This document shows positions 47 through 17,889 of a stretch of DNA of 64,000 nt, piece after piece. A program made the translations under genes and the position numbers. The notes below the pieces were generated by a model. It was not told the DNA's origin and did not search any database. It saw only the letters and a list, made by a program, of their open reading frames with translations. How positions within the stretch are numbered: position 1 is the stretch's first letter; each line of letters starts with the position of its first letter. The DNA lies in contig LMZS01000157.1 of assembly GCA_001567085.1 (NCBI GenBank), positions 1-64,000 on the forward strand, read 5' to 3'. The DNA is from Chloroflexi bacterium OLB15 (lineage in GTDB: Bacteria > Chloroflexota > Anaerolineae > Aggregatilineales > Phototrophicaceae).

Positions 47-2771
47 CTATGCTTCTACCTTCACCGTCACCACCTCTGCCGGCAGCACGTCAAAAGTGAT
101 CCGCGCGCCGTCCTGCACCGTCAGCTCCCCTATCACCTCTTCCGCCATATTCACCAGCGCCGCTGAACGCACCGGCACACCGAATTTGATGCTCGCCTGT
201 TTAACCGGTTCCTGCGTGATGTTATAGGTGCGCACGATCAAGCTGTCGCCGCTGCGGTAAACCGCGCTCAGCACCAATTGTGCCGGCTCAACCGTCACAA
301 ATGAGCAGCTATCCGGCAGATTACCGCCGCGCGGCCAAGGGATCGGCGTCACCTGTGCCGGATCATCGCGGGTGATGTTCATCTCCCGCAGTTCCAGCCC
401 CGGATCGCGTATCCCCGCGCACCGCCAGCAGCGGCGCGTTATAGCAATGTGCCGCCTGATACACTGCCTGCCAGTCGCCGTTATGCGGGAAAATCGCGTA
501 TTCAAAGGTGTAATCGCCTTTGCACTGCGCCCCCGGCGTTGGCACCAGCGGCCCCGCCGCGATCCGCCGTATCCACAGATCATCCCGCGAAAGCCAGCCC
601 ACTGCTCGCAGCAGCGTCAGCGCGATCACTCCATCTTCGCTCACTTCCACCGAAGGCAGCCCACGATTGAACACCGCCAGCCCGTGTTCCCCATCGCTTA
701 AATCGGTGAATGTTCGCTGATGCATCAACGGGGTCGGGTCTTCTACCCAGCCTTCGGAAGGTGGCAGCGCTAGTACACGTTTGGCTACCATGAATGACTC
801 ATCTACATACGCTGCTTCCGCCTTGATCCCTGTCGGGAAATGCGCTGTCAGCTTGTGATCTTCCGCCTGATTATGGATTCGCGTCTTAATACCGACGTAT
901 GGCTGCCCTACCGCCAGCGACACTTCCACGGTAAGCGGCAGCGCTATCGTTTCCTCACTGCGCCCGCTTCTATCTGCTGTCAGCCCCTTTGGAATCGCGA
1001 AATCATACGTAATCGCAAATGTTGCCCGCAGCGGCCCATGCTCAATCAGCTTCACAATCACATTTTTACCGACTGTCGTCACCGGTTTGCTTTCAGGGAA
1101 CGGGCAGTGGCTGTATGCATCGCCAATATCTTCGCTGTCATAAAACTGGTTCAACTGTGAATACTGCTTGCCGCTGGCCTTATCCGTCACCGTCAGGCTG
1201 CCATCATCCGCAATCGCAAACGCCAGCAGCGCGTTTTCTGCCCCACGCTCGCTGATTAACAGGCTGCCTACCTGCCTCACCGCCCCACCAGATCGCGGCT
1301 GCACATACAATGTGGTATAGCCGCATGCCGGCACTTCCACAGGCAGCAGCATCGTGATGCGCCGCTTGCGGTTGGGCTTCAGCACTTCCATCCAGAACAA
1401 TGGCTCATCGCTCACAATTTGGTGTGGAACGATCTCGCCTGCCGCGTTCATCACCTGAAAACCGTCCGCCGTCGGATCATCAAAATCAAAATCTACCACC
1501 GCTTCGGCCACTTCCTGCCGCGCCTGCCCGGATGGGTTGTAAGCCACCACCGGCATCCCCGCCTGCGCCGTCATATCAATCTGCCGCGCAAGCTGGCGCA
1601 CACTGTCGCGGATCAGCGCCTCACCGATCTGCCGCGTCTGGCTGAAGCGATAGGCCATCTCATGATGCACCTCATCAATGCCGCAGCCATACATATCGTC
1701 ATGGGGATGATTCAGCAGCACCCATCGCCATGCCAGGTCAACCAGATCGGGCGTCCCTTCTGGCACATTTGCCCCTGCCAGCCACGCCAGCGCGGTCAGC
1801 GGCTCAACGTAACGTTCCATCCGCGTTTCCGCCGCGTGATTCTGTTGTTTCAGGTGAATCCGCGTTGAATACACACCCTGCAAGATTTCTGAATATCGCC
1901 CCCAGCGGAACTCACCCTCAAATTCTGGCAGCGCCACACCGCTTGCGCGCACATTCGCCAGATGATCCAGCAGCGTCCCCTGCTTGATCGTCACCGCTTC
2001 AAGCTGCCCATTCGCCGCCTTGATCACCTGGGGGATACGCGGCTCCGGCTCAGCATGATCGATCCCGTTCATCAGCAGCAATGCATTGGTATTCGCCATC
2101 GGCCTTAAGCGTTCAATCGCGCGCTCAATTTGCCTTTGTGCCAGCGGCGCGTCAAACGCCATCTGCGTGGTATCGCCCCAGTGGATCGCAAACCCCAAAT
2201 TTGAAATGTTATGATAGCCCCAGGGCATCAAAATCGCCGTCACCGCGTCGCCATTGGCCGCCCGCCAAATGAACTCCGTCCCCATCTGGTCGCCTTCTAC
2301 GCCCATCCCCCGCCAGAAGAAAGCGTTATCAATCCCGAAGCCGCGCAAAATCTGCGGCAGCTGTGCGATATGCCCGAAGCCGTCCGGCACATAGCCGATA
2401 TTCACCACCCCGCCATAAGCTTCCCCCAGCCGCCGCCCCAGCCGCAGGTTGCGAATCAGCGATTCCGGGCTGACCAGAAATTCATCCGCCAGCACAAACC
2501 ACGGTCCCACCTGTATCCGCCCGCTCCGGCAGTAGGCTTGTAGCGCTTCCGCTTTGGCAGGCCGCGCCTCCAGATAATCATCCAGAACGCTCATTTGCCC
2601 ATCGAGCATATAAACTGAATATTCAGGGTCGCTCTGCAAAATATCCAGCAAATGATCTATAAGTCGCACCAGCCGGATGCGGTATTCCTGAAATGTGCAA
2701 TACCAGGCACGATCCCAGTGGGTGTGGCTGACCAGCGTTGCCCGGTACCGCCTCGCTACGTGCTCGCTCAC
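47..2771 (-). CDS. Alpha-mannosidase, GH38 family (one apparent frameshift)
   Basis: Retaining GH38 alpha-mannosidase that removes terminal alpha-mannose from oligosaccharides or glycans. No clear signal peptide is seen, so it is probably cytoplasmic. The N-terminal (alpha/beta)7 domain shows HTHWD (residues about 16-20) for zinc binding, and PDGFGH near residue 130 carries the expected nucleophile Asp. NGIDH and the C-terminal beta-sandwich follow. I place the start at a GTG (2771) because GGAGG lies at 2776-2780; an ATG 63 bases upstream has no comparable site. The reading frame breaks at a CCCC run (413-416). Removing one base joins the upstream part to the last roughly 120 residues, ending at 49-47 and giving about 907 aa, a normal length. 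The break is probably a homopolymer error. It is transcribed divergently from the ferritin-like gene cluster. Confidence 0.88.
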
Positions 2772-2823
2772 GATCCCTCCAAATGTTGACAGTCTTGCAG
2801 GTTGACTATATATTTTCGTCAAA

Positions 2824-2861
2824 TGTATAGACAATTATAGCCACTTGTATGCTTCCAGCAA
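2824..2861 (-). promoter_or_regulatory. Promoter and GntR-type operator of the alpha-mannosidase gene
   Basis: On the minus strand a perfect TATAAT (2839-2834) lies 16 bases after TTGCTG (2861-2856). Immediately downstream is TGTCTATACA (2833-2824). Read on the plus strand its core, GTATAGAC, fits the GntR-family consensus GTMTAKAC. The site covers the expected transcription start, as a repressor site would. The same core recurs at 9280-9291, and a palindromic variant lies at 20828-20839. The regulator is not in the window, so its identity is inferred from the consensus alone. Confidence 0.5.
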
Positions 2862-2953: not shown

Positions 2954-4165
2954 ATGAGCCCCCTAAAACACATCACTATCGAAGAAAATGTCGAATATTT
3001 GAAACGCTATGCTTTTTTTGAACGCGCTGCCATGCGCGCGCTGGCGGGTTGGCTTCCCGGCGTCCCTGAATGGGATGCTAAAAATGAAATCGGTTTGGAT
3101 GTTTGGGAAAGCGCCGACGCTGTAGATGTGATCTATGGTCGCCTGCGCGAACTGCGCTGCTACCAACCCGAACGCAATATCAGCCCGGTGCTGCCACAAA
3201 TCGCCAGCGCTTTTGATGAATCTGCCAATACTGCCGAAGTCATTGCGACAGTTTATCTGGTCGTCAAGAAGCAGTTGTTGGAAGCGCTTCGCACCCACCC
3301 TGAAGCCACATGGAGCGATTTTGACAACCCCACCGTCAAGGTTGCCGAACAATTGATCCCTTCGCTCGAACGTCAGGTTGCCTGGGCTGATGCATATTTT
3401 CCAACTATTGCCGCCAACTACCCCGGCTGGGAAGCATGGCGTGATTATGTCGTCGGGCTGCTTGCAGCGGATGGTGGCATCAGCGGCGCAGGCGAAAAGA
3501 GTGAAGCCCCTGCCCGCCCTGAGGGTCATGCTCTGCTGCTTCCATGGATGGAATGCCAGCGTATGCCCGATTGGCCGATCTTCAAGCCCGAAGAAGACAT
3601 TCAGCCTGATCGTGAAACTGATCCTGAAGGTTACCGCTTATGGCGCTTCAAGCACTACACCAACGAAATGACCGCCGCAGAGACCCTCGGCTCTATCCTT
3701 TGGATGACGCCGGAAATGATCTGGGAATACCAGCACAACGTTGCCCGTCATCTCTGGGATGAACTGCGCCACAGCCAGCTTGGGCAAACCCGCGTCCAGC
3801 AGTTAGGCCTCAAGCTCAACGAGATACCGCAGGTCGTGCAAATCTATAACGTCATGATGACCCTGCCCGCCGTTGAACAATACGCCTTGCTGACCACCGT
3901 GATCGAGCCAAACGGCATGCCCGAAAAGACCACCAACCGCGAGCATTGGGAAGCGCTTGAAGACGAAATTTCCGCCGCCGCCGTCAGCTATGATTGGAGT
4001 GACGAGAATTTCCACGTTCGTTGGGGGCAAAAATGGACGCCAGTCTTGCTTAAGACCTATAACTATCCGGAAACTCCTGACGAAATCCGCGTGCGCATGG
4101 AAGCATGGATGCTTGAAAACACGCCAGTCAAAATGCAGCAGAACCACGCTCACCATGAGTATTAG
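2954..4165 (+). CDS. Ferritin-like diiron protein A, unknown function
   Basis: 403 aa, no signal peptide. The C-terminal half shows the complete carboxylate-bridged diiron pattern of a four-helix bundle: E243 (in AAETLGS), E270-x2-H273 (DELRH), E318 (VIEPNG) and E351-x2-H354 (DENFH). The N-terminal half is also helical and may be a degenerate second bundle. A paralogue follows 51 bases downstream, then a 2Fe-2S ferredoxin and a TIM-barrel protein, so the four are probably co-transcribed. GAGG at 2943-2946 supports the ATG. Known families with this pattern include oxygenases, oxidases, rubrerythrin-like and DUF455-like proteins; I cannot assign it to one. The ferredoxin next door favours an electron-consuming oxygenase or oxidase over iron storage, but that is inference. 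Confidence 0.7.
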   Translation: MSPLKHITIEENVEYLKRYAFFERAAMRALAGWLPGVPEWDAKNEIGLDVWESADAVDVIYGRLRELRCYQPERNISPVLPQIASAFDESANTAEVIATVYLVVKKQLLEALRTHPEATWSDFDNPTVKVAEQLIPSLERQVAWADAYFPTIAANYPGWEAWRDYVVGLLAADGGISGAGEKSEAPARPEGHALLLPWMECQRMPDWPIFKPEEDIQPDRETDPEGYRLWRFKHYTNEMTAAETLGSILWMTPEMIWEYQHNVARHLWDELRHSQLGQTRVQQLGLKLNEIPQVVQIYNVMMTLPAVEQYALLTTVIEPNGMPEKTTNREHWEALEDEISAAAVSYDWSDENFHVRWGQKWTPVLLKTYNYPETPDEIRVRMEAWMLENTPVKMQQNHAHHEY

Positions 4166-4216
4166 TCAATAACGCTCACGCTGTTTTAGGGCGAGGGCTA
4201 AAAAAGGCAAACCATC

Positions 4217-5626
4217 ATGCCAAAAGCGATACCAGCTACCCGCCGCACCGCACAGTTCACCCGCGTGAACGATGCCTCCGCCATCCTCAAGCGTTTCTAT
4301 ATCGTAGAACGCCAGATGATGCGCGCCTTTGCCGGATGGATGATCAACACCAGCAACGTTGAACTAAAATTCTTTCTCGCTGGCGAATTATGGCTCTGCT
4401 CTCAACATGCGGATTCTCTCCGCACCCGCGTGCTTGAACTCCGCTATCCGCGCCGTGATGTAGATAAGAAATGGGATGCCGAAATCGTTGCCTTCACTGA
4501 AGAAGTGATCAAAGCCGCCAATCTCAGCGAGTTCATGGCAGGTGCTTACGATGTCGTCTTTTCCGGGCTGGTCAGCGATCTTCATGAATATCTCGAACGC
4601 GCCGATATGCTGGATGACGCACCTACCGTCTACCGCCTGCGCCATATCTTGCTAGACACCGAAGCCCGTATCGAGCGCGCCCGCGAGCAGCATGATCTTT
4701 ATCTCATCCATCCCTCACCGCCCGCTGAATGGCGTGATTATCTCGGTCGTTCGCTGGCTAGCATCGGCCGCCTCAGTGGGCTTGGAGTGCGCAACCCTGT
4801 TCCCGCCGATCATCCCGCCGCTGGTCGCCCACAGTTCACCATCCCCCAAACCGTCGAGCGTGATCAGCGTTTCAAGCCGTCGCTTTTCCACCTGCCCCAC
4901 GAAAATAAATTCGATAAAGCGGGAGCTGCCGCGTGGAAGCGCATTGAATCACTAGATAAGCGCGTCGCCATGCAGGTCTGGTCAGCTATCAGCCATTTCA
5001 ACGAAATCTGGGCGGCTGAAGTGCCCGCCTCCGTCCTCTTTGATTTGCAAAATCAGCCCTGGGATTTCTACCTCGATCTTGCCCGCTGGTCATACGACGA
5101 ATCTCGCCACAGCATGATGGGCTATCGCGCATTACAAGGATGGGGGTGGGATGTTCCCGCGCTTATCCCTTATGGCAATGCCCTCTATAACGCCCTCAGC
5201 CACCTGCCTGCCGCGCAGCGCCTAGCCCTGCTTTATTACTACGAAGAAGGCTTGCTCCGCAGCGGCACCAAGCAAATCGAGATTCAAATTCTCGAATCTG
5301 CGGGCGATGAAGGCAGCATCCAAGATATGGATTATGACTGGGCAGACGAAGCGATTCACGTTAGCTATGGTTTCAAATGGCTGCGTCATCTGCTGGGCGA
5401 TGACAGCGCCGGTCAAGCCGAACTCAAACGTCTGACCGATGAGGCACGCGAAGTCATGTCCGAATTCGTCCGCGCTCATGGCAGCGATCCCGCCAACAGC
5501 CTCGCACCCTATTTTGACCGTCTCTACGATGTAATTTCAGAGATGAGCTTCGATATTCCCGACGATGGGCTGGAAATTCACTGGGCGCCGGTCGTGGCCG
5601 ACGAAGCTGTACTAGAAGATCTATAG
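4217..5626 (+). CDS. Ferritin-like diiron protein B, paralogue of the preceding gene
   Basis: 469 aa, no signal peptide. It shares its layout with the upstream gene, including similar N-terminal helices (FxERxxMRAxAGW, then ELR) and a C-terminal diiron bundle with E263 (HFNEIW), E295-x2-H298 (DESRH), E343 or E344 (YYYEEG) and E378-x2-H381 (DEAIH). Both paralogues keep all ligands, so neither looks like a purely structural subunit. It ends 3 bases before the ferredoxin start, so translation is probably coupled. A two-subunit or two-step diiron enzyme fed by the ferredoxin is a reasonable hypothesis. Substrate unknown; the surroundings suggest a carbohydrate or a sugar-derived compound. Confidence 0.7.
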   Translation: MPKAIPATRRTAQFTRVNDASAILKRFYIVERQMMRAFAGWMINTSNVELKFFLAGELWLCSQHADSLRTRVLELRYPRRDVDKKWDAEIVAFTEEVIKAANLSEFMAGAYDVVFSGLVSDLHEYLERADMLDDAPTVYRLRHILLDTEARIERAREQHDLYLIHPSPPAEWRDYLGRSLASIGRLSGLGVRNPVPADHPAAGRPQFTIPQTVERDQRFKPSLFHLPHENKFDKAGAAAWKRIESLDKRVAMQVWSAISHFNEIWAAEVPASVLFDLQNQPWDFYLDLARWSYDESRHSMMGYRALQGWGWDVPALIPYGNALYNALSHLPAAQRLALLYYYEEGLLRSGTKQIEIQILESAGDEGSIQDMDYDWADEAIHVSYGFKWLRHLLGDDSAGQAELKRLTDEAREVMSEFVRAHGSDPANSLAPYFDRLYDVISEMSFDIPDDGLEIHWAPVVADEAVLEDL

Positions 5627-5629
5627 CCC

Positions 5630-5902
5630 TTGTACACCATCCGTCTGGTCAAAACTGGGGTTTCCTTTTCAGCCGCTGATGATGAGGTCATCCTAGACGC
5701 CGCCGAGCGTGCAGGCATCATCCTCACCCATAGCTGTCGTGGGGGTACCTGCCGCGCATGTCTCACACAGGTGATCAGCGGATGTATTGAGCATGACCCT
5801 GAATATGTGGATGTATTAAGCATTGATCGCAGCGAAGTGGCCGCTGGCTTTCGCCTGTTATGTAGTTCGCTTGCCTGTTCAGATGCAGAACTGGATCGGT
5901 AA
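5630..5902 (+). CDS. 2Fe-2S ferredoxin, plant/adrenodoxin-fold type
   Basis: 90 aa small electron carrier. The motif SCRGGTCRAC gives Cys-x4-Cys-x2-Cys, and the fourth cysteine is in RLLCSS about 40 residues later, the standard ligand set for a beta-grasp 2Fe-2S ferredoxin. The start is a TTG, 3 bases after the stop of the ferritin-like B gene, so it is probably translationally coupled. No reductase gene is adjacent, so electrons would have to come from a general ferredoxin reductase elsewhere. Its place between two diiron proteins and a sugar isomerase-like protein suggests it serves the diiron enzyme(s). Confidence 0.85.
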   Translation: MYTIRLVKTGVSFSAADDEVILDAAERAGIILTHSCRGGTCRACLTQVISGCIEHDPEYVDVLSIDRSEVAAGFRLLCSSLACSDAELDR

Positions 5903-5910
5903 CAGAGATC

Positions 5911-6702
5911 ATGAAATTAGAAATTTATCGCTCCCTCTGGGGCATGACCGGCACGCTTGACGAGAATCTTACCCGCATAGCTGAAGCGGGTATCTATGTG
6001 GGCATTGAAGGCTTTCTCGATGCCATAACCATCCCTGTTTCTGAGTTCAAGACGCAGGTTCAAGATCGCGGTCTGAAATTGATCATGGCCGGTGCCGCCG
6101 CCACGAAAGAAGAAATCGAGCCGCTGGTTACGCAGCTCGCTGAATTTGCGCCCGTAAAAATCGGACTGCACAGCGGCCGCGACAGCATGACCCGCGAAGA
6201 AGGTTGCGCCTTCTTTGAAGAAGCCCTTCGGGTAGAGCAGCAGATCGGCATCCCCGTTTCTCATGAAACCCATCGCGGGCGCATCCTGTTCAGCCCCTGG
6301 GACGCGTTCTTTTATCTACGCCAGTTTGAAAGCCTGAAGCTCGTCGCCGATTACAGCCATTGGGTGAACGTCTGCGAGCGCCTGCCTGAAGATCAGGCGC
6401 ACGTCTTTGAGCTGGCAAACCAGCGCGCCTTTCACATTCATGCCCGCATCGGCTATGAGCAAGGCCCGCAGGTGCCAGACCCCGCCGCGCCGGAATATGC
6501 AGCACAGCGCGCGTGGCATGAACAACAGTGGTTGCAAATTAAGCACAGCCGCCAGCACGCAGGCGATGACGTGCTCACGCTGGTGCCTGAATACGGCCCG
6601 CCACCCTACCAGCACACCCTACCCTTCACTAACGCCCCTGTTGCCGAAAACTGGCGGGTCTGCCTGTGGGCTGCTGAGCAAGCCCGTCAACTGCTCGGCT
6701 GA
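5911..6702 (+). CDS. Sugar phosphate isomerase/epimerase-like TIM-barrel protein
   Basis: 263 aa, xylose isomerase-like TIM barrel (AP endonuclease family 2 fold). Likely metal ligands lie at strand ends as expected: Glu in SHETHRG, Asp in VADYSHW, His in FHIHARIG and Glu in LVPEYGPPPY. Such proteins isomerise or epimerise sugars or keto-acids, or cleave related compounds; the exact substrate cannot be read from sequence. It starts 8 bases after the ferredoxin stop and closes the four-gene group that begins with two diiron proteins. It may act on the product of that system. Confidence 0.75.
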   Translation: MKLEIYRSLWGMTGTLDENLTRIAEAGIYVGIEGFLDAITIPVSEFKTQVQDRGLKLIMAGAAATKEEIEPLVTQLAEFAPVKIGLHSGRDSMTREEGCAFFEEALRVEQQIGIPVSHETHRGRILFSPWDAFFYLRQFESLKLVADYSHWVNVCERLPEDQAHVFELANQRAFHIHARIGYEQGPQVPDPAAPEYAAQRAWHEQQWLQIKHSRQHAGDDVLTLVPEYGPPPYQHTLPFTNAPVAENWRVCLWAAEQARQLLG

Positions 6703-6826
6703 AAGGACGCCACCTACATCGTAAGGGGCACATTTCACCCCAAAACACGCGTCAATTTACTTGCAGGCACATTTCGCGAACCGCCCTTCATGCAGCGGAT
6801 TCGGGCATCTTTTGGAGAATATTTGT

Positions 6827-9199
6827 ATGGTCTATGCACCTTATAACGCCCCGGAAGGCTTCGATTGGGTACTTCATTTAGCAAACTGGTCGCTTAACGG
6901 CAGCACGCTGGAACTAATCCTACGTACCGCTGGTGAACAACAGGCGGTATTGTCGCTCTCTGCTGTCTCCCCGTTCATCTGGCGTATCACCATGACCATC
7001 CCCGGCGCACAGCCCCAAGCGCCTACACCTATCCTGGTGCCTCAACCACCATCACCCGTAGCGCTTGAAGCCATTGAGGGCGCTGATTTTCTGTCAGTCT
7101 CTGGCGCGAAAACCACCCTCCGCATAGATTTTGATCCCTTTTGCCTGCGCTTTCAGGATGCGAACGGGCGCGATATCTGCCGCCAAAACCCGCAGGATAT
7201 TGATGGATTAGGCAGGCCGTTCATTCTGCCCTTAGGATTCGTGAATGGTGATCGCAATCCGCTGATCACCGAAACGTTCCACCTCCGCCCTGATGAGCAT
7301 CTTTTCGGATTGGGCGAAAAGTTCACCCCTTTAGACAAGCGGGGTCAGCGCATTATCAGTTGGACGCAGGATGCCTTCGGCTCTACCAGCGAGCGCTCTC
7401 ACAAAAACATCCCCTTTCTGATCAGCACCAATGGCTATGGCCTGCTGCTGGATACCGGCGCGAAGGTCATTTGGGAACTGGGCACCATCTCTTGCCAGTC
7501 CTACACCATGAATATCGAAGGAACTACGCTGGATGCTTACTGGATCTACGGCCCAACGCCCGCCGAAATCCTCGCCCGTTATACCGATCTCACCGGCCAC
7601 GCGCCAATGCCGCCCGATTGGTCATTCGGCCTGTGGATGTCAGGCAGCGGTGTACGTCGTGACCGCGCCAGCATCGAAAACATGGTGAATGGCCTCGAAT
7701 CCCGCGATTTCCCCGCCGATGTCATCCATATTGATACGTGGTGGATGAAATGGCGGCAGTATGTCAATTATCGCTTCGATGCTGAAGCCTTTCCCGATGT
7801 TGAGCAGTTCATCGCCAATCTTCACAGCAAAGGCCTGAAGCTCTCGCTTTGGGAACAGCCTTATATCTCAATTGAAAGCCATCTCTATGAACCTGGCGCC
7901 GCCAATGGCTACTTCCTCAAGCGACCAGATGGCGAAGTTTACGTGATTGATTACGGCCTCTCATTAGCCCCCCGCCCTGATGGCGTCATCCGAGTCGCCT
8001 CGCCTGAAACCTCATGGAATGCGCCCGTCGCCATTATTGACATGAGCAACCCTGAAGCCGTGCGCTGGTTTCAGGACTTACATCGCCCCTTACTACAAAT
8101 GGGCGTTGATGTGTTCAAGACCGATTTTGGCGAAGATATCCCCCGCGATGCCGTGTTCAGCAACGGGCAAACTGGCGCTGCCATGCACAACCTATATCCT
8201 TTGCTCTATAACCAGGCTGTCTCCGATGTTACCCGGCAGGAAAAGGGCTACTCGCTGGTCTGGAGTCGCTCTGGCACCGCTGGCAACCAGCGTTATCCGG
8301 TCTGCTGGTCAGCCGATCCCGCCGCCGATTGGGACAGCCTCGCCTGCACAATTCGCGGCGGCCTCTCTATCGGCATGTCCGGCATCCCCTTCTGGAGCAG
8401 CGATATCGGCGGCTATCGCGGCATGCCCTCACCAGAATTATTCGTGCGCTGGGCGCAGTTCACGTTGTTTTGCTCTCACGCCCGTATGCACGGGGACAGC
8501 GCCCGCGAGCCGTGGGAATTTGGCGATCAAGCCTATGCCATCGTGCGCGCCTATGTGGAACTACGTTATCGCCTGTTCCCCTATATCTACAGCACCGCAC
8601 TCGAAGCTGCGCAAACCGGCATGCCCGTGATTCGCGCTATGCCTCTCGCCTTCCCGGATGATCCCAACACCTACGATAAAGATTTGCAATATATGTTCGG
8701 CGATTCCTTGCTGGTCGCGCCCATCTACAACGCTGATGGCGAGCGCAGCATTTACCTGCCCGAAGGCACCTGGATTGATTTCCATACCGGCACAGCCTAT
8801 CAGGGGTCAACCAACCTTCGCGTACACGCCAGCTTAGAAACCATGCCCATTTATGTGCGCGGCGGGTCTATCATCCCCACTGTTGAATCCGGAAAGCGTA
8901 TCGCCCAGCCCACCTCAAACATCCTGATTTGTGATGTTTACCCGCATGGCAGCAGCAGCTATCTACTGCGCCAAATAGGCGGCAGCATTCAATTTTCAGT
9001 TCATAAAGCAGGCGCAACTACCGTGATCAACTGGGCCGCAGCAGCCGAACAGGATTTAGCATTTCGCTTCCCGATGCAATCCGCTGTCAACGTCATCTCA
9101 GCCTCCGTTCACTGCGAATCCAGCACGTTTCAAGGCGCACCAGCCATCATTCCACAGCGATCAAAGCTAGGTTCAATCACCCTTCAGTGGGAAGAATAA
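6827..9199 (+). CDS. GH31 glycoside hydrolase, alpha-xylosidase (YicI)-like
   Basis: 790 aa, cytoplasmic. The catalytic domain holds KTDFGEDIPRD, with the nucleophile at D433, and SADPAADW, whose Asp is the probable acid/base. These are followed by GGLSIGMSGIPFW and SSDIGGY. KTDFGE is typical of the YicI-type alpha-xylosidase branch, though alpha-glucosidase activity cannot be excluded. An N-terminal beta-sandwich precedes the barrel and a C-terminal beta domain follows. The start at 6827 is chosen for GGAGA at 6814-6818; an upstream in-frame ATG lacks a site. It would release alpha-xylose or alpha-glucose from imported oligosaccharides. Confidence 0.88.
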   Translation: MVYAPYNAPEGFDWVLHLANWSLNGSTLELILRTAGEQQAVLSLSAVSPFIWRITMTIPGAQPQAPTPILVPQPPSPVALEAIEGADFLSVSGAKTTLRIDFDPFCLRFQDANGRDICRQNPQDIDGLGRPFILPLGFVNGDRNPLITETFHLRPDEHLFGLGEKFTPLDKRGQRIISWTQDAFGSTSERSHKNIPFLISTNGYGLLLDTGAKVIWELGTISCQSYTMNIEGTTLDAYWIYGPTPAEILARYTDLTGHAPMPPDWSFGLWMSGSGVRRDRASIENMVNGLESRDFPADVIHIDTWWMKWRQYVNYRFDAEAFPDVEQFIANLHSKGLKLSLWEQPYISIESHLYEPGAANGYFLKRPDGEVYVIDYGLSLAPRPDGVIRVASPETSWNAPVAIIDMSNPEAVRWFQDLHRPLLQMGVDVFKTDFGEDIPRDAVFSNGQTGAAMHNLYPLLYNQAVSDVTRQEKGYSLVWSRSGTAGNQRYPVCWSADPAADWDSLACTIRGGLSIGMSGIPFWSSDIGGYRGMPSPELFVRWAQFTLFCSHARMHGDSAREPWEFGDQAYAIVRAYVELRYRLFPYIYSTALEAAQTGMPVIRAMPLAFPDDPNTYDKDLQYMFGDSLLVAPIYNADGERSIYLPEGTWIDFHTGTAYQGSTNLRVHASLETMPIYVRGGSIIPTVESGKRIAQPTSNILICDVYPHGSSSYLLRQIGGSIQFSVHKAGATTVINWAAAAEQDLAFRFPMQSAVNVISASVHCESSTFQGAPAIIPQRSKLGSITLQWEE

Positions 9200-9249: not shown

Positions 9250-9313
9250 TTGACATCGCGGCGTGATGGATGTAGAGTTTTGTATAGACAAATACTCAAG
9301 TTGTCTTATACAA
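9250..9313 (+). promoter_or_regulatory. Promoter with two GntR-type operator sites upstream of a sugar-binding protein gene
   Basis: TTGACA (9250-9255), a 17-base spacer and TAGAGT (9273-9278) make a good sigma-70-type promoter. Directly after it is TTGTATAGACAA (9280-9291), and a second related site in inverted orientation, TTGTCTTATACAA (9301-9313), follows with one extra base. The first has the core GTATAGAC seen at the mannosidase promoter and in the same place relative to the -10 box. The arrangement fits repression by steric block. The intergenic stretch 9200-9388 holds nothing else that I can identify. Confidence 0.6.
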
Positions 9314-9388
9314 CAGGAGGGTATTGGTTGGATAATTACTTTTGACCGAACCAAAGCATCGTCAAAATTACTTGCAAGGAGAACTCTA

Positions 9389-10759
9389 ATGCTTCGCAAA
9401 CTCTTATGTGTGGTCGGCGCCGGTTTACTACTGGTTCCGGCAATGGCAATCTCCGCTCAAGCAGATTGCGCCGAACAGATCACTCTCCGCGTGGATGACT
9501 GGTCTAGCGGTGACCGTGTGGAATATATGAATCAGGTATTGGAGGCCTTCATGGCTGAAAATCCCTGCGTCACCGTTGTCACCGAGCCAAACATCTCTGA
9601 CGATGCCAACACCCGCCGCCTCACCCAGATTTTGACCGGCACCGCCCCAGACTTGATCGCCACCGGCGAATCGTGGATTCCGCTGTATCAGGAAGCCGGC
9701 GCGTTCCTTGATCTCACGCCCTTCATTCAAGGCGAAAACGGCTTCGATCCCGCTGAAATCTTTTACGAAGGCGTCTTCAATCAGGGCTTCTATCGCGGCG
9801 TTCCCTACGCCATCGCCAAAGACTACAGCACCAGCGCCTTCTACATTAACAACGCCCTGTTTGAAGCGGCAGGCATTCCCCTGCCCGAAGATGGTTGGAC
9901 GTGGGATGATGTGCTTGATATCGCGTTGGAACTGACTGTTGATGCCAACGGCAATAACGCCAACAGCCCTGACTTTGACCCCGAAAATATCGTGCAGTAT
10001 GGCATTGACATCATTCCTGACGGCTGGTGGCGCGGTTTCCAGAGCTACCTGTATTCCTGGGGCGCTCATACCATCAGCGATGACGGCACTACTACCGCCG
10101 GTTATCTGGACAGCGAAAACGCAGTCGCCGCATGGGAGTTCTACCGCGACCTTGTGAATGTATATCATGTCGCCCCCAGCGCCACCATTCTCGGTTCGAT
10201 TGAAGGGGGGCGCACGCAAATGTTCCAGGACGGCCAGCTTGCCATTGGCAACACCTTCCATGGCCCCTGGTGGCAGGATGTGTTCAACGAAACCCCGAAT
10301 CTCTCATGGAGCGTTGCGCCGCTTCCGGCTGGCCCCGATGGCATCCGTGAAAGTGCTGTCATGTGGATGGGCTGGGGCATCAATGCTAACACTGAACACC
10401 CTGATGAAGCCTGGGCGCTGCTGCGCTGGCTGACCACCGAACCCGGACAGCGCGTATTCGCCCTCAAGGCGCTCAGCGCCGATCGCGCCGTTAGCGAAGA
10501 AATGCAGCGCGTAGATGATCCCTACTGGGGCGTGTTCATCGCTGAAGCCGATCACCTCGGCCAGTTGGATGAGCAGTTAAATCCCTACTATGGCCCATGC
10601 GTATTCACGCCTGCTGGCGACCTGCTCACCCGCGTAATGAGCGATGGCGGTGAAGAAATTGACATCGCTGCTGAACTGACTGCCCTCTCTGCCGAAGCGG
10701 ATGCCTGCCTTGCTGAAGCCGCTGAAGCCGGTGTAGCCGCGGTTGCCGAAGGGTCGTAA
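9389..10759 (+). CDS. Extracellular solute-binding protein of a carbohydrate ABC importer (family 1)
   Basis: 456 aa secreted binding protein. The N-terminus has a short basic stretch and a hydrophobic core (LLCVVGAGLLLVPAMA) with a probable type I cleavage near AQA; no lipobox cysteine is evident. The body matches MalE-type binding proteins, with TAPDLIATGE and GVPYAIAKDYSTSAFYIN. The start at 9389 is preferred because AAGGAGA lies just upstream and it gives a clean signal peptide; an earlier in-frame ATG at 9263 does not. Two permease genes follow after a strong hairpin. Substrate unknown, probably an oligosaccharide handled by the neighbouring hydrolases. Confidence 0.9.
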   Translation: MLRKLLCVVGAGLLLVPAMAISAQADCAEQITLRVDDWSSGDRVEYMNQVLEAFMAENPCVTVVTEPNISDDANTRRLTQILTGTAPDLIATGESWIPLYQEAGAFLDLTPFIQGENGFDPAEIFYEGVFNQGFYRGVPYAIAKDYSTSAFYINNALFEAAGIPLPEDGWTWDDVLDIALELTVDANGNNANSPDFDPENIVQYGIDIIPDGWWRGFQSYLYSWGAHTISDDGTTTAGYLDSENAVAAWEFYRDLVNVYHVAPSATILGSIEGGRTQMFQDGQLAIGNTFHGPWWQDVFNETPNLSWSVAPLPAGPDGIRESAVMWMGWGINANTEHPDEAWALLRWLTTEPGQRVFALKALSADRAVSEEMQRVDDPYWGVFIAEADHLGQLDEQLNPYYGPCVFTPAGDLLTRVMSDGGEEIDIAAELTALSAEADACLAEAAEAGVAAVAEGS

Positions 10760-10954: not shown

Positions 10955-11875
10955 ATGCTCGTCCGCCTGCAAAAACGCTTAAACCTATCATCGCCCATGG
11001 AAAGGCGAGAGGCGCTGACCTTCTACATCCTCATCAGCCCCTGGCTGATCGGGTTCCTGATCTTCTGGGCTTACCCGATGCTGCGTTCGCTGTATCTTTC
11101 CTTCACCACCTACAGCTTACAAGGCCCGCCTATCTGGGTCGGATTCCGCAATTATGAACGCATTTTCAGCGACGCCGATTTCTGGCAGTCGCTCAAAGTT
11201 ACACTCACCTACGCCTTCGGCAGCGTGCTTGGCGGCACCAGCATCGCGCTTTTACTGGCACTGATCCTCTCGCAAAAACTGCGCGGTATCACCATCTGGC
11301 GCACTATCTTCTTCATGCCTTCCATTCTCAGCAGCATCGCTGTCGCCATTTTATGGCTGTATGTGTTCCGCCCTGAAGGGGGACTGTTCAACCTTGCCTT
11401 AGGCGCAATCGGCATTGAAGGCCCCAACTGGCTGAACAGCGAACAATGGGCGCTGCCTGCCATGATCATCATGTCGTGGTGGACGATAGGCGGCCAGATC
11501 GTCATCTATCTGGCTGGCATCAAGGGTATTCCCGATATTCTTTACGAAGCCGCCGATCTGGATGGAGCCAGCCCCTTCCAGCGTTTCCGCTTCATCACCC
11601 TGCCCATGCTCAGCCCGACGATCTTCTTCAACGTCGTGCTGGCGATCATCGGCGCGTTACAGGTGTTCGATGTCGGCTGGGTGCTAACGCGCGGCGGCCC
11701 CAATGATTCCACCCTCTTCTACCTGATCAATCTCTATGAACGCGCCTTCCAGCTTGTGCAGTTCGGCTATGCATCGGCGCTGGCATGGATACTTTTCATC
11801 ATCATCATGGCGATCACCTTGCTGGTCATTCGCTCGTCTACTCTTTGGGTCTTCTATGAAACGGAGCAGCGCTGA
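10955..11875 (+). CDS. Sugar ABC transporter permease, MalF/UgpA type
   Basis: 306 aa integral membrane protein with about six membrane segments. The EAA loop reads YEAADLDGASPFQRF, the cytoplasmic site that contacts the ATPase. A GGAGG site precedes the ATG. Its stop overlaps the start of the next permease gene (TGATG), so the two are translationally coupled. It forms the membrane channel with the MalG-like protein downstream. No ATPase is encoded nearby; a shared MsmX/UgpC-type ATPase elsewhere is expected. Confidence 0.9.
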   Translation: MLVRLQKRLNLSSPMERREALTFYILISPWLIGFLIFWAYPMLRSLYLSFTTYSLQGPPIWVGFRNYERIFSDADFWQSLKVTLTYAFGSVLGGTSIALLLALILSQKLRGITIWRTIFFMPSILSSIAVAILWLYVFRPEGGLFNLALGAIGIEGPNWLNSEQWALPAMIIMSWWTIGGQIVIYLAGIKGIPDILYEAADLDGASPFQRFRFITLPMLSPTIFFNVVLAIIGALQVFDVGWVLTRGGPNDSTLFYLINLYERAFQLVQFGYASALAWILFIIIMAITLLVIRSSTLWVFYETEQR

Positions 11876-13815
11876 TGGCCACCACCGCACAAAAGCGTCC
11901 GCCATCTCGCTGGCAGGAAATACGCAGTTCTACCCGTTACCAGAAAACAGTTCGCAGCATCATCAGCTACACTATCTTGTGCATCGGCGCGGCCTTTGTG
12001 CTTTTTCCAATGCTGTGGATGATTTCATCCAGCATGAAGCCATCGTGGCAAATCTTCACCAGCCCGCCCATCTGGATTCCACAGGAGTGGGAATCGGTCA
12101 CGGCTGGCAATACCAACCGTCAAATTCTGCTCTACCGGGTGCAGCGCGACGGTGAAACTGAGAACGTGATTCAGATCGGCTCGCGCCGCTATACCACCGC
12201 CATTGATGCTGCCCGGCTAACCGATCTCCAATCAGTCCCTTCAGATCAACTGGGAACCGCCACCTCCACCGTCATTGACGGCATCACTTTCAATGTGCGC
12301 TCGTGGACGACAGACGGGCAGACGCAGGACGTAGTGGCGCTGGCACGCGGCGAAGGCGACAATCTTCTGGTCGCGCCGGTGTCTGTGCTGCAAACCGCTG
12401 CCCTGCGTATGCCGCTTGATGAGGTCAACAGCGGTGGCCGTGTCACCCTTGAGATTGACGGCGCCGAGTTTAGAGGCCGCGAAATCGAAACTGAAGATGG
12501 CACGCTCAGCGTCATTCCCATCGGCCCGGAAACCGATCTGGTCGTCGTTGGCCCACCAGAAAGCGTAGCTAACGCCCGTCTGGTTCCAGCAGAACTGGTG
12601 TCCTCTGCCGGTACCGCAGTCATCGGCGAAACCGAACTCCCCCTCTCAATCGTTGAAGGCAGCGACGAAGAATATATCGTGTTGGCAACCGACTCGTGGC
12701 AGCCGATCATCAATGAAGATGAACTGGATGCTTACGCCTTTGTCGCAGATCGGGCAGCTTTAGGCGAGCGCAGCCAACGTGACGTAAATGGCGTCAGCGT
12801 ACAGGTGACGCAGTACACACCTGAAGGCGGCACCCCACAAACTGTTGTTATTCTGGTCAGCGGCACGCAGAACAGCCTGGTCATTCCTGTGGACGATGCT
12901 GCCACTTTGCGGCTGGCGCAGTATGCCGATATGACCACCACTCGCGGCGATACTATGGATCGCATCCCTTACCGCGTGCAGGATGGCTATAGTGAAGGTG
13001 ATGTTACATCTTCAGTGGCGCTGATTGGCGACCCGCGTAATATGGCGCTGATTGTGCCCGCCGATGCCGTGAACGATGCTTTCGATGTTGCGCCAGCCAA
13101 TCTTGAACGGGCGCTGCATACTGAGTTCACCTTTGACTCCTACCGTGAAGCCCTGACCACCAAAGTCGGCGGCACTTACTTCCCGACCTTCTTCCGCAAC
13201 TCGTTTGTTCTGGTCATCCTGAACACCATCGGCCACGTGATCTCCTGTATCGTCGTCGCCTACGCCTTCGCCCGTCTGCGCGCGCCCGGCAAGAATTTTC
13301 TGTTTCTGGTGCTGCTCGGCACGATGATGCTGCCCTTCCCGGTCACGCTGGTGCCGATGTACGAAATCTTCCGCGATTTGAACATGGTGAACACGCTCTG
13401 GCCGTTGTTCATCCGCTCATTCTTTGGCAACGCCTTCCTGATCTTCATGATGCGCCAGTTCTTCTCCTCAATTCCCAAAGAGCTGGAAGAAGCAGCACGC
13501 ATTGACGGCGCCAGCACTTTGCGTATCATCTGGAATGTGTTTGTGCCGCTGAGCAAGCCAGCCATCGCCACCGTGATCATCTTCACCTTCTGGTGGACGT
13601 GGAACAGCTTCCTTGAACCGCTGATTTACCTGAGCAGCCCGGATATGTTCCCGGTGTCGCTCGGTTTGAATTTCTTTCAGGATCAATACGGCACCAGTAT
13701 CTATTTTGACCGCCTGATCGCGGCTTCTGTATTAAGTATGCTGCCGATGCTGATCCTGTTCTTCTTCGCTCAGCGTTACTTTATTGATGGTATTCAGATG
13801 ACAGGGATGAAATAA
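11875..13815 (+). CDS. Sugar ABC transporter permease, MalG type, with a large repeat-bearing insertion
   Basis: 646 aa, more than twice the usual 270-290 aa. Residues about 36-57 form the first membrane segment, followed by the usual FTSPPIWIPQEW. Normal MalG sequence resumes at FTFDSYREAL and the next membrane segment, and includes the EAA loop LEEAARIDGASTLRI. Between them lie about 350 residues rich in beta-strand and Val/Asp/Thr, predicted to be extracytoplasmic. This stretch reads as about six degenerate units of 55-60 residues. Frame and codon use are continuous, so it is not an assembly join of two genes. The insertion may form a substrate-capturing or binding-protein-docking domain, but that is inference. 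Confidence 0.88.
   Translation: MATTAQKRPPSRWQEIRSSTRYQKTVRSIISYTILCIGAAFVLFPMLWMISSSMKPSWQIFTSPPIWIPQEWESVTAGNTNRQILLYRVQRDGETENVIQIGSRRYTTAIDAARLTDLQSVPSDQLGTATSTVIDGITFNVRSWTTDGQTQDVVALARGEGDNLLVAPVSVLQTAALRMPLDEVNSGGRVTLEIDGAEFRGREIETEDGTLSVIPIGPETDLVVVGPPESVANARLVPAELVSSAGTAVIGETELPLSIVEGSDEEYIVLATDSWQPIINEDELDAYAFVADRAALGERSQRDVNGVSVQVTQYTPEGGTPQTVVILVSGTQNSLVIPVDDAATLRLAQYADMTTTRGDTMDRIPYRVQDGYSEGDVTSSVALIGDPRNMALIVPADAVNDAFDVAPANLERALHTEFTFDSYREALTTKVGGTYFPTFFRNSFVLVILNTIGHVISCIVVAYAFARLRAPGKNFLFLVLLGTMMLPFPVTLVPMYEIFRDLNMVNTLWPLFIRSFFGNAFLIFMMRQFFSSIPKELEEAARIDGASTLRIIWNVFVPLSKPAIATVIIFTFWWTWNSFLEPLIYLSSPDMFPVSLGLNFFQDQYGTSIYFDRLIAASVLSMLPMLILFFFAQRYFIDGIQMTGMK
12118..13130 (+). repeat. 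Six degenerate protein-level repeats in the MalG insertion
   Basis: The insertion splits into units beginning about 12118, 12282, 12466, 12633, 12796 and 12964. Each unit has a strand, then an acidic turn often like DG or EG, then a hydrophobic strand, a Gly-containing turn, a second hydrophobic strand, often a P and a segment rich in A. Aligned core examples are VVALARGEGDNLLVAPVS, VIPIGPETDLVVVGPPES, VVILVSGTQNSLVIPVDD and VALIGDPRNMALIVPADA. Identity between units is low, so this is an old duplication. Boundaries were set by eye. Confidence 0.6.
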
Positions 13816-13816
13816 C

Positions 13817-14893
13817 ATGGTGCTTGGCATGAGTACGCTTGCAGGTCTGGCGCTGCTGCGCCCCGGCGTGAAACGTCGCCGTCTTTCCAGCTATGATCGA
13901 GCGGGTGGCAACAGCGATTGGTGGGAATTTGCCCCCGGCGAAACCAGAGCTATTGCTGAAATTGAGGGCGCGGGCAGCATCAAGCATATCTGGTGCACCA
14001 TGTTTAGCGACTCTAAATATGAGTATCGCAAGGTGGTGCTGCGCATGTTTTGGGACGGGGAAACTGAGCCGAGCGTCGAAGTGCCGATTGGCGACTTTTT
14101 CGGCATGGGGCATGGCATCTCCAAAAACTTCGTTTCGCTGCCGCTGCAAATGAGTCCTCAGGATGGCCGCGCCTTCAACTGCTGGTTCCCGATGCCCTTT
14201 GGCGAAAGTGCACGCATCGAAATTACCAACGAGTGCGAGAAGCAGTTGAATTTTTACTTCTACGTTGATTATGAAGCATATCCGGATGGCACCGATATGA
14301 GCGCTTACGGGCGTTTTCATGCCCAGTGGCGGCGGGTGAACCCGACCAATGGCTGGGCTGATCCCGCTGTGCGCTGGGCAGACGGCAACCGTGATCTGAT
14401 GCGCGAAGCCTGGAAAACCCCTAATCTGACTGGTGAAAACAATTACGTGATTCTTGAAGCCGAAGGCGCGGGGCATTACGTCGGCTGCCACGTAGATATT
14501 GACGTGTTCACCCGCCAGGCCAACGACTGGTATGGCGAAGGCGATGATATGATCTTCATTGATGGTGACCCGCTGCCTACGCTTAACGGCACTGGCACCG
14601 AAGATTATTTCAATACCGCCTTCTGCCCAAAAACCGAGTATTCCGCGCCCTATCACGGCGTGATCTTGTATCAGGGCACCGAAGATTGGCCCTGGCGCGG
14701 CAAAAACAGCGTATACCGCTACCATATCGAAGACCCAATCTTCTTTGAAAAATCAATCAAGGTGACGATTGAACACGGGCATGCCAATAAGTTGACGCTG
14801 GATTATGCGTCTACCGCTTACTGGTATCAGACCGAGCCGCACAAGCTGTACCTACCGCTGCCGGCGCTTGAATTTCGCATGCCGAGGTTGTAG
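13817..14893 (+). CDS. GH172 family (DUF2961) glycoside hydrolase
   Basis: 358 aa. The opening RRLSSYDRAGGNSDWW, then GSIKHIW, and later GTGTEDYFNTAF are characteristic of the DUF2961 family, now GH172. Characterised members act on alpha-fructofuranosides or D-arabinofuranosides. No signal peptide is convincing, although the first residues are mildly hydrophobic. The ATG lies one base after the stop of the MalG-like gene, so it is part of the same transcription unit and probably acts on what that importer brings in. Substrate specificity is not readable from sequence. Confidence 0.85.
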   Translation: MVLGMSTLAGLALLRPGVKRRRLSSYDRAGGNSDWWEFAPGETRAIAEIEGAGSIKHIWCTMFSDSKYEYRKVVLRMFWDGETEPSVEVPIGDFFGMGHGISKNFVSLPLQMSPQDGRAFNCWFPMPFGESARIEITNECEKQLNFYFYVDYEAYPDGTDMSAYGRFHAQWRRVNPTNGWADPAVRWADGNRDLMREAWKTPNLTGENNYVILEAEGAGHYVGCHVDIDVFTRQANDWYGEGDDMIFIDGDPLPTLNGTGTEDYFNTAFCPKTEYSAPYHGVILYQGTEDWPWRGKNSVYRYHIEDPIFFEKSIKVTIEHGHANKLTLDYASTAYWYQTEPHKLYLPLPALEFRMPRL

Positions 14894-15097: not shown

Positions 15098-17757
15098 ATG
15101 CTTGAAAACACGCTTGCTGAAACCATCTCGCTGAACGGCATCTGGCAGATTGAACTGGCCGGGCAGCGCGGGAATATTGAAGTGCCCTCGGCATGGGATG
15201 TTCATGCTATGCCGATATTGAAGGCCCTGCCTTTTACCGCCGCGATGTTGATATTCCGGCATCATGGGCGGGCGCAAAAATCGTGCTGCAATTTGGCGCG
15301 GTCAGCTATTACGTAGACGTTTACGTGAACGGCATGCTGGCGGGTTCACACGAAGGGTTGTGGACAGCCTTTGACATAGACATCACACGCTACCTTCTGG
15401 CAGGCCAGTCCAACACCATTGATCTGCACATCACCAAACCCGCGGATGATGGTGACCGCTTCCCGTATCGTAACGTGCTGGTTGGCTTTATTCCCTATGT
15501 ATCTACCACCTTCGGCGGCGTGTGGCAGGATGTGCAGTTGATCGCCCATCGCGCCCCCATCTTCAGCGATGTGCATCTAAGCGCTGATCCAGAAACGGGC
15601 AGCGTGAGCGTCAGCGCGCAAACCACCGCTTATGACGGTCAAACCAATGTATCTGGCCTGTCATGGTCGGCTGAAATCATCGCGCCGGATGGGCAAATCG
15701 CCGCGAGGCTGGATGCGCCGTTCGCGTATGGCAGGCTGGCTGCGTCCCTCACCGTTGAAAATCCGCAGGCATGGTCGCCATCTACGCCTGATCTTTATCA
15801 AATACGACTGGCGATCTTGAAAGAAGGCCTGCCGATCAGCGAAACGGCGCGATCTTTTGGCTTCCGCAAACTTGAAACACGCGGAGAGCGGCTGCTTTTG
15901 AACGGCAAACCGATCTTTCTACGCGGCGTCTTAAGCTGGGGTTGGGAACCGCGCACGCTGGCGCCAAACTTTAGCGAAGACGAAATCCGCGCAGAATTCC
16001 GGCGGGTGCGCGGGTTAGGCTTCAACTTTTTTAAGCTGTGCCTGTACGTGCCTGCCCCACGCCTGTTCGAGATTGCCGACGAAGAGGGGATGCTGCTGTG
16101 GCTGGAGCTGCCGATGTGGCTGCCCCGTTTGAGCGATCATCTGCGCGAACAATCGCAAAAGGAATATGCCGGTATTTTGGCGCAGGTGCATCATCATCCA
16201 TCGGTGGTGATCTACAGCCTTGGCTGCGAATTAAGCGCGGATATGGCCGATGCTGAACTGCTGGAGGCGCTGGACAATATTACTCGCCGCGCTACCAGCG
16301 GGGTGATCGTGTGCGACAACAGCGGCAGCGGCGAGGCCTACGGCGGACTGACCAGCGATACCGCCGATTTCAACGACTATCATTTCTACTGCGACCTGCA
16401 TTATTTCACCCCCTTATGTGAACATTTCCGGCGCGATTGGCGATCCCCGCGCCCCTGGATTTTCGGCGAGTTTTGCGACAGCGACGACTACCGCGATCCG
16501 GCGGAACTGGTCGAAAACGGCGCGCGCATGTGGTGGCGCGATCTGCTAGGCAAAGATGGCGGGATACACCGCTGGGCATACCGCGATCAAGAACTGCTGG
16601 TAGGCGGCCTTAACCTACCCTTTAGCGACGCGCAAATGCAGGCGATCTCGCGCAAACAGTCGTTCATCTACCGCAAGCGGATTCTGGAAACAGTGCGTGC
16701 GCGGCGCGATATTCGCGGCTATGTGCTGACCGGCCTGCGCGATACGCCGATGTTTGTGGGCGGCGTGTTTGACGATTTAGGGCGCAGCAAATATCCGGCA
16801 GATAGTTTCAGGCAGTTCAATAGTGACGCGGTGCTGCTGCTGGAGCAGGGACGCGGGCGCATGTGGCAGCACGGCGGAGACCGCCCCGCGCCTAAAGATA
16901 AGTTCAATCACCCATCCGGCAGCAAAGTCACCTTCCGTCTCGTGCTGGCGACTGGCGAAGCGGCGGTGAATGCAAGCCAGCTAAAATGGACATTCAGCCA
17001 CAAAATAAGCGGCAAAGTGATTGCCGAAGGCATCATGCCGGTCGCCAAAACCCTGAATGCCGAACGGCTGCACGAACTGGTCGCAATTGAAATCGCCATG
17101 CCTCAGGTAGCACGCCCGGAAATTTGCGAGCTAACTGTTGAACTGAACGCGAGCGATGGCATTCGGCGTAATTCGTGGACTCACTGGGTATATCCGGCGG
17201 CCAGCCTTGAAAATGCCATCATCTACGATCCAGCAGGGCAGTTGAGCGATATTCCGGCGGCGCGTATTCACGATATTGCTGAAGCAGATGGCTCAAAAGC
17301 GCTGATCACGCCGCTGCTAACCGGTGAAATCGAAGCCTTCATCCGCAGCGGCGGCAAAGCGATCCTGCTGCATACAGGCGAAGGATCGCTGCCTGCGCTC
17401 CCGCTTCCATTCTGGCGGGAGTCAATCAAACTGCTGCATTCCCATGCTGTGCTGGCCGATTTCCCACATGAAGGCTATGCCGACTTGCAGTTTTACAATC
17501 TGGCGACAGACTATGCGCTGGATACTGCCGCGCTGCGCGAGCGCTTTGGCGCAGAAGCAGTGACGCTGATCATGACGCGGCTGGATGCGCGGCTGTTCCA
17601 GCAGAGCGAATATCTGGTCGAGATCAGCATTGGCGCTGGCAAACTGTACGCATCTACGCTGCGTTTCAGCGGCGGCACAGGCGATCAGGTGCAGAGTTTC
17701 AGCGCGAATATTGCAGGTCAATGGCTGCTGGGGGAAATAGTAAGCTGCGCATTTTAG
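15098..17757 (+). CDS. GH2 family glycoside hydrolase (one apparent frameshift)
   Basis: Retaining beta-glycosidase of the GH2 (beta-galactosidase/glucuronidase/mannosidase) fold. The N-terminal jelly roll starts with SLNGIWQIEL and continues in another frame with DIEGPAFYRRDV. The catalytic barrel holds YSLGCELS, whose Glu is the expected acid/base, and PWIFGEFCDS, whose Glu is the expected nucleophile. In most GH2 enzymes the residue before the acid/base is Asn; here it is Cys. The frame break lies near 15203-15210, and adding one base restores about 886 aa. The start at 15098 lacks a strong ribosome site. Substrate unknown. Confidence 0.82.
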
Positions 17758-17820
17758 CCCGTGCGCGAACCACCTGCCTTGACGACGCGGTTGGGATAGC
17801 ATAACAAGCCTGTATATATC

Positions 17821-17848
17821 GCAGGGAAAAAGCATGCCTTTTCCCTGC
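17821..17848 (+). terminator. Hairpin between GH2 and GH65 genes
   Basis: GCAGGGAAAA (17821-17830) pairs perfectly with TTTTCCCTGC (17839-17848) around an eight-base loop, followed by a moderately T-rich stretch (CAATTTTCTTT). It could terminate the GH2 transcript or be a leader hairpin of the GH65 gene. A possible -35 TTGACG lies at 17779-17784, but no good -10 was found. Confidence 0.5.
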
Positions 17849-17889
17849 CAATTTTCTTTAAGCAGAGCCTCGCAAAATCGCTTAGAGGT

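Follow-up and report, generated by a model that had tools for sequence, protein, structure and literature searches.

Ferredoxin-paired DUF455 proteins in sugar gene clusters of two phyla point to an undescribed O2-using step in sugar or glycoside breakdown

A 64,000-nucleotide stretch from Chloroflexi bacterium OLB15 (contig LMZS01000157.1, positions 1 to 64,000; hereafter the window) carries a cassette of four genes encoding two ferritin-like proteins, here termed A and B, a plant-type [2Fe-2S] ferredoxin and a triosephosphate isomerase (TIM)-type barrel protein. Comparative analysis, which provides the evidence throughout, indicated that A and B both belong to DUF455 (PF04305), a family for which no described function was found, and have diverged deeply, and that the ferredoxin belongs, as judged from gene position, to B rather than to an A/B pair, marking one clade of enzymes. 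The occurrence of ferredoxin-paired DUF455 proteins in sugar clusters of two unrelated phyla points to an undescribed O2-using step in the breakdown of a sugar or glycoside. An earlier reading made from the DNA alone (the sequence-only reading) had viewed A and B as duplicated diiron subunits which, together with a dedicated ferredoxin, would oxidise a sugar or glycoside prior to isomerisation. Its diiron residues, ferredoxin and sugar locus stood up to the present analysis and its subunit pair did not; oxidation of a sugar, as it proposed, is plausible.

Family membership and predicted architecture of A and B

In a Pfam search, B scored 38.9 bits against DUF455, above the gathering cut-off of 34.3, and A scored 33.3 bits, one bit under the same cut-off. 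A and B align lengthwise with their ligand residues in common, and the DUF455 match spans the diiron half of both proteins. No other diiron-type family gave a Pfam match to A or B at E values up to 1, an NCBIfam search provided no name for A, B or the TIM protein, and searches of PDB sequences with A, B and profile A1 returned no match. A literature search, judged by titles, found no functional study of DUF455, and PF04305 drew no paper. The remark that neither protein resembles known subunit sequences, and that the system may be undescribed, agrees with these results, and both proteins fall into a function-unknown family rather than a storage or non-redox one.

Both proteins contain the complete E/ExxH/E/ExxH set that had been recognised in the sequence, namely E238, E270xxH273, E318 and E351xxH354 in A, and E263, E295xxH298, E343 and E378xxH381 in B. 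A first alignment comprised 46 family members from relatives; in an extended one of 86 members, spanning Chloroflexota, Bacillota, Deinococcota, Verrucomicrobiota, Acidobacteriota and Ignavibacteriota, all six ligands are invariant (86/86). The sole fully invariant residues (A numbering) are E238, D269, E270, R272, H273, G277, E318, D347, D350, E351 and H354, corresponding to the six expected ligands and their neighbours, with one DExRH motif among them; the diiron monooxygenase ChlA/AcsF is reported to have such a motif as well (PMC4500134). Given the invariance of these ligands and the presence of orthologues that share 57-86% identity and occur in as many as 23 genomes, the cassette is not a product of chance.

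The predicted structure of A (mean predicted local distance difference test score, pLDDT, 95.7) consists of two helical bundles. The diiron residues sit in the C-terminal bundle, where they fall within helices 239-251, 257-283, 306-334 and 338-368 or at their margins, and their pattern suggests that the six residues converge on one putative metal site. A comparable architecture of B is suggested by its alignment with A. With the model of A as query, Foldseek returned nothing at E ≤ 0.001. Structural alignment (VIA-align) covered mainly residues 4-187, limiting the fold likeness to the N-terminal part; the many ferritin-like chains that this bundle matched include toluene 4-monooxygenase chain B (Z 15.1), SSO1313 (Z 14.6) and bacterioferritins, a kind of likeness common among helical bundles. 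A second diiron site in the N-terminal bundle of A and B was rejected, as the ligand-like positions are not kept; the N-terminal bundle of some relatives shows ExxH-like remnants.

Association of the ferredoxin with B

The ferredoxin scored 49.5 bits against the Fer2 model (Pfam cut-off 21), and its cluster cysteines, C36, C41, C44 and C78, are invariant in 12 sequences. Its gene lies immediately 3' of B in 16 of 16 testable Chloroflexota genomes, the 17th being cut by a contig end, and follows a B-type gene in all nine Paenibacillaceae loci (9/9), whose B-type proteins are 33-39% identical to B of the window. The ferredoxin start falls between -8 and +8 bases from the end of B in all 25 measured cases from Chloroflexota and Bacillota. 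The dedicated ferredoxin of the sequence-only reading was thus confirmed for B, with co-occurrence in two phyla. At an E value of 1e-75, B was found in none of the other 399 sampled genomes of the phylum. More distant B-type proteins of Paenibacillaceae are without the ferredoxin, and two of them adjoin a TIM gene. In a tree of 91 family members, every ferredoxin-linked protein lies inside one supported clade of 34, and the ferredoxin label requires two changes compared to a mean of 21.3 after shuffling (0/500 as low). A is placed on the opposite side of a deep, supported split from B. The tree carries a long-branch warning, and details of its deep branching order are therefore unsure. Two Paenibacillaceae B-ferredoxin pairs (L114:9845-12338 and L197:8832-9614) adjoin a PhyH-type dioxygenase gene, assigned by Pfam in L114 and by similarity to L114 in L197, with no TIM gene there.

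Occurrence was counted in 151 related genomes, most of which are metagenome assemblies. A was found in 23 genomes, B in 17 and both in 15, compared to 2.6 expected (p 3e-13, which is not an independent-event probability because the genomes are related), and the two genes are adjacent in eight loci. Such adjacency and co-occurrence would be expected if the ferredoxin served a single heteromeric multicomponent oxygenase in which A and B were the alpha- and beta-type subunits. However, A occurs without B in eight genomes and B without A in two, suggesting that they are not obligate subunits, and no A gene adjoins the B-type loci of Paenibacillaceae. Together with the full diiron sets in both chains, the two bundles in A alone and the deep split, this makes a heteromeric enzyme improbable. 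A and B share one family but are not recent duplicates, and the intuitive subunit reading is corrected to one in which the ferredoxin marks an enzyme clade instead of an A/B complex. A co-occurs with a glycoside hydrolase (GH) family 38 gene in 23 of 23 genomes, one of these GH38 genes being only a contig-edge fragment. A may be another DUF455 enzyme that evolves separately and is linked to GH38, acting on a like substrate in a related reaction with a different electron source. A third DUF455-type protein is encoded in the window genome (L061:1265-2608, G000:C77); it belongs to a ferredoxin-free sister clade and lies beside a BPD_transp_2 sugar permease gene.

Proposed reaction and competing explanations

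A reductase/ferredoxin/oxygenase chain has diiron ligands and a tightly linked ferredoxin at its core, and B and the ferredoxin are read as a putative two-component, O2-activating diiron oxygenase of the DUF455 family. The neighbours of family members are mostly sugar genes (GH38, GH31, GH2, GH35, GH42, GH106, sugar ATP-binding cassette (ABC) systems and PfkB kinases), in addition to Gfo/Idh and zinc-type dehydrogenases, a sulfatase, a PhyH-type dioxygenase and AraC, GntR and GntR/LacI regulators. On account of this sugar gene neighbourhood, the substrate is likely to be a sugar or glycoside, for which uptake through the adjacent ABC transporter and trimming by GH31, GH38 and GH2 enzymes are proposed. 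A reductase encoded at another locus would pass electrons to the ferredoxin, which would then reduce the C-terminal diiron site of B to allow O2 activation and oxidation of a substrate C-H bond, and the TIM barrel may isomerise or cleave the oxidation product. The genome of the window includes a haem-copper oxidase gene, suggesting that the organism can probably respire O2. The chance that B and its ferredoxin use O2 to oxidise a sugar or glycoside is judged to be about even. The likeliest specific reaction, oxidative loss of the O-methyl group from a methylated sugar, is a tentative and rather doubtful proposal, O-methyl sugars being the best guess from methyl-transfer genes in sister loci. 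It is conceivable, at somewhat less than even chance, that DUF455 is a large family of diiron sugar or glycoside oxygenases, of which one clade has a dedicated ferredoxin and provides an aerobic route, such as oxidative O-demethylation of methylated sugars, alongside the corrinoid methyl transfer of sister loci.

Four clusters of uroporphyrinogen decarboxylase (URO-D)-fold proteins, a kind of protein encoded beside A in many relatives, score to MtaA/CmuA methyltransferase models and retain the HxC motif, which binds zinc in the MtaA/CmuA-type group. A corrinoid protein is encoded in six A loci (L034, L023, L028, L029, L033 and L036), next to a confirmed RACo-type activator in one of them (L034:12366-15039); the corrinoid gene occurs in 6 of 11 A-only loci versus none of seven A-B loci (p 0.025, from related genomes). 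The six corrinoid genes lie next to Chloroflexota sugar loci with GH38, GntR/LacI and HxC-motif URO-D-fold genes, and may be part of a corrinoid-based system that demethylates sugars in this phylum. No match to the corrinoid protein was obtained in the window genome (assembly 91% complete) or in its closest relative, G010. A corrinoid link was consequently rejected as a feature of the window, and the methyl-sugar link rests on relatives.

The TIM protein has the conserved residues E119, D147, H175 and E227. It has no Pfam match itself, a difference from the AP2Ec family (PF01261, which includes 3-keto-glycoside beta-eliminases), whereas the conserved E-D-H-E set is shared with that family, and a 46% identical homologue from Paenibacillaceae (L195) scored 49.8 bits against PF01261 (cut-off 31.1). 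The protein therefore appears to be of AP2Ec type, in line with the isomerase/epimerase-like enzyme predicted before. Among 16 B genomes, 11 have its gene directly behind the ferredoxin; the gene co-occurs with B in 14 of 17, and the order B-ferredoxin-TIM recurs in two Paenibacillaceae (L195 and L196). Its best PDB sequence match, 8BVK, is not significant (E 0.077 over 49 residues only). 8BVK is the O-glycoside beta-eliminase AtOGE, in which His132 on beta5 binds the metal and His134 is used by the enzyme (PMC10628242). At this HxH position, the TIM protein reads HETHR and, with the invariant E119, appears closer to ordinary isomerases.

Several observations weigh against an oxygenase formed by B and the ferredoxin, or against its proposed substrate. 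Neither the cassette nor the genes next to it include a reductase gene. A, like most DUF455 relatives, is without an adjoining ferredoxin, so dependence on a ferredoxin is not a family property. The TIM gene occurs in eight genomes without B, no methyltransferase or corrinoid gene is found in the window locus, and a single-sequence AlphaFold model of B was unusable (pLDDT 43).

Other explanations for the same genes were considered. B and the ferredoxin may hydroxylate a glycoside ring carbon, such as C3, to a 3-keto glycoside, followed by beta-elimination by the TIM protein. The AP2Ec-like barrel, the 8BVK match and the Gfo/Idh oxidoreductases adjoining some relatives are in keeping with such ring oxidation and elimination; however, the match is short and non-significant, the histidine motif and E119 look closer to those of ordinary isomerases than to AtOGE, and sugar C3 oxidation is usually carried out by enzymes dependent on nicotinamide or flavin adenine dinucleotide (NAD or FAD), making this route unlikely. 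A similarly low probability is given to DUF455 proteins being diiron proteins for another task, such as removal of O2 or peroxide to shield corrinoid, radical or other metal enzymes, or non-oxidative chemistry. Some loci do contain genes for O2-sensitive kinds of enzyme, either a corrinoid protein plus RACo-type activator or a radical S-adenosylmethionine (SAM) protein (L103), but most loci associate with sugar genes rather than with such enzymes, and the corrinoid gene is absent from all seven A-B loci. Iron-storage or ferritin-type proteins, incidentally positioned in a sugar locus, would account for the likeness of the N-terminal bundle to bacterioferritins; chains of 400-470 amino acids with two bundles, a dedicated ferredoxin and no iron-homeostasis genes seen nearby render this explanation very improbable.

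The proposed oxygenase resembles ferredoxin-dependent diiron oxygenases (multicomponent monooxygenases, PaaA-type enzymes and AcsF/ChlA) in the E/ExxH/E/ExxH set, the DExRH motif and a [2Fe-2S] donor, but neither A nor B has a Pfam sequence match to these families. In contrast to multicomponent enzymes with separate catalytic and structural subunits, DUF455 proteins are one chain, A and B occur independently, the cassette is without a reductase gene and its context is that of sugars. Compared to DUF455 itself, the proteins of the window have a further conserved half at the N-terminus, and B has a dedicated ferredoxin in addition. The class of ferredoxin-fed diiron chemistry is known, whereas the family, the architecture and the sugar setting appear new. 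Methyl sugars are known to be demethylated oxidatively mainly by P450 enzymes. A cytochrome P450 of porphyran degraders demethylates 6-O-methyl-D-galactose oxidatively within a glycan-use pathway, a reaction like the one proposed here, although by a haem protein rather than a diiron protein (PMC10033563). Corrinoid/MtaA-type demethylation is related through the corrinoid protein, RACo-type activator and HxC URO-D-fold proteins adjoining A in relatives; it differs in that none of its genes is in the window locus and known systems are without DUF455. If the proposal is true, it would provide the first testable function for a function-unknown Pfam family and add a diiron route to sugar modification, and cultured Paenibacillus hosts would be usable for gene-deletion and growth tests.

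The window locus and additional observations

The open reading frame (ORF) coordinates (Table 1) reproduced the four plus-strand genes of the sequence-only reading, with gaps of 51 (A-B), 3 (B-ferredoxin) and 8 bases (ferredoxin-TIM), as well as its sugar-use locus, since GH38, GH31 and sugar ABC genes flank the cassette. The GH38 gene is upstream of A and divergent; GH31, sugar ABC, DUF2961, GH2 and GH65 genes follow downstream. GH31 is retained 3' of the cassette in L026, L027, L030 and L052.

Table 1 Features of the cassette and its neighbourhood in the window
Feature	Position	Strand	Basis or remark
A, DUF455-type two-bundle putative diiron protein, 403 amino acids	2954-4165	+	ORF call and family search
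B, DUF455-type putative diiron protein, 469 amino acids, proposed catalytic oxygenase	4217-5626	+	ORF call and family search
Plant-type [2Fe-2S] ferredoxin, 90 amino acids, TTG start, proposed electron donor of B	5630-5902	+	
AP2Ec-like (xylose-isomerase-like) TIM barrel, 263 amino acids	5911-6702	+	
GH38 glycosidase, mannosylglycerate-hydrolase/alpha-mannosidase type	363-2834	-	Constant genomic partner of A
GH31 glycosidase, alpha-xylosidase-like	6761-9199	+	587 bits, cut-off 606
Sugar ABC solute-binding gene	9263-10759	+	By position and likeness to relatives
Sugar ABC permeases	10955-11875 and 11875-13815	+	BPD_transp_1 on 11875-13815
DUF2961-family protein	13817-14893	+	
GH2-type glycosidase	15193-17757	+	

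Further DUF455-type genes were observed in other settings. In Ignavibacteria (L103:8619-11026 and L137), one lies 3' of a radical SAM gene, and a plasmid search gave a single distant match, a DUF455-family gene between transposase genes on the conjugative Geobacillus plasmid pGS18 (L149, record 16829-17962).

In the window, GH65 is broken into two ORFs that overlap in different reading frames (17890-19596 and 19422-20102), and its counterpart in a relative is a single 736-amino-acid ORF (L021:1040-3250, 80% identical); the split is either an assembly error or a pseudogene. In the permease encoded at 11875-13815 (646 amino acids), the BPD_transp_1 match is confined to residues 460-636, and the odd size is common to relatives (650-696 amino acids), suggesting a large extra segment within this sugar permease.

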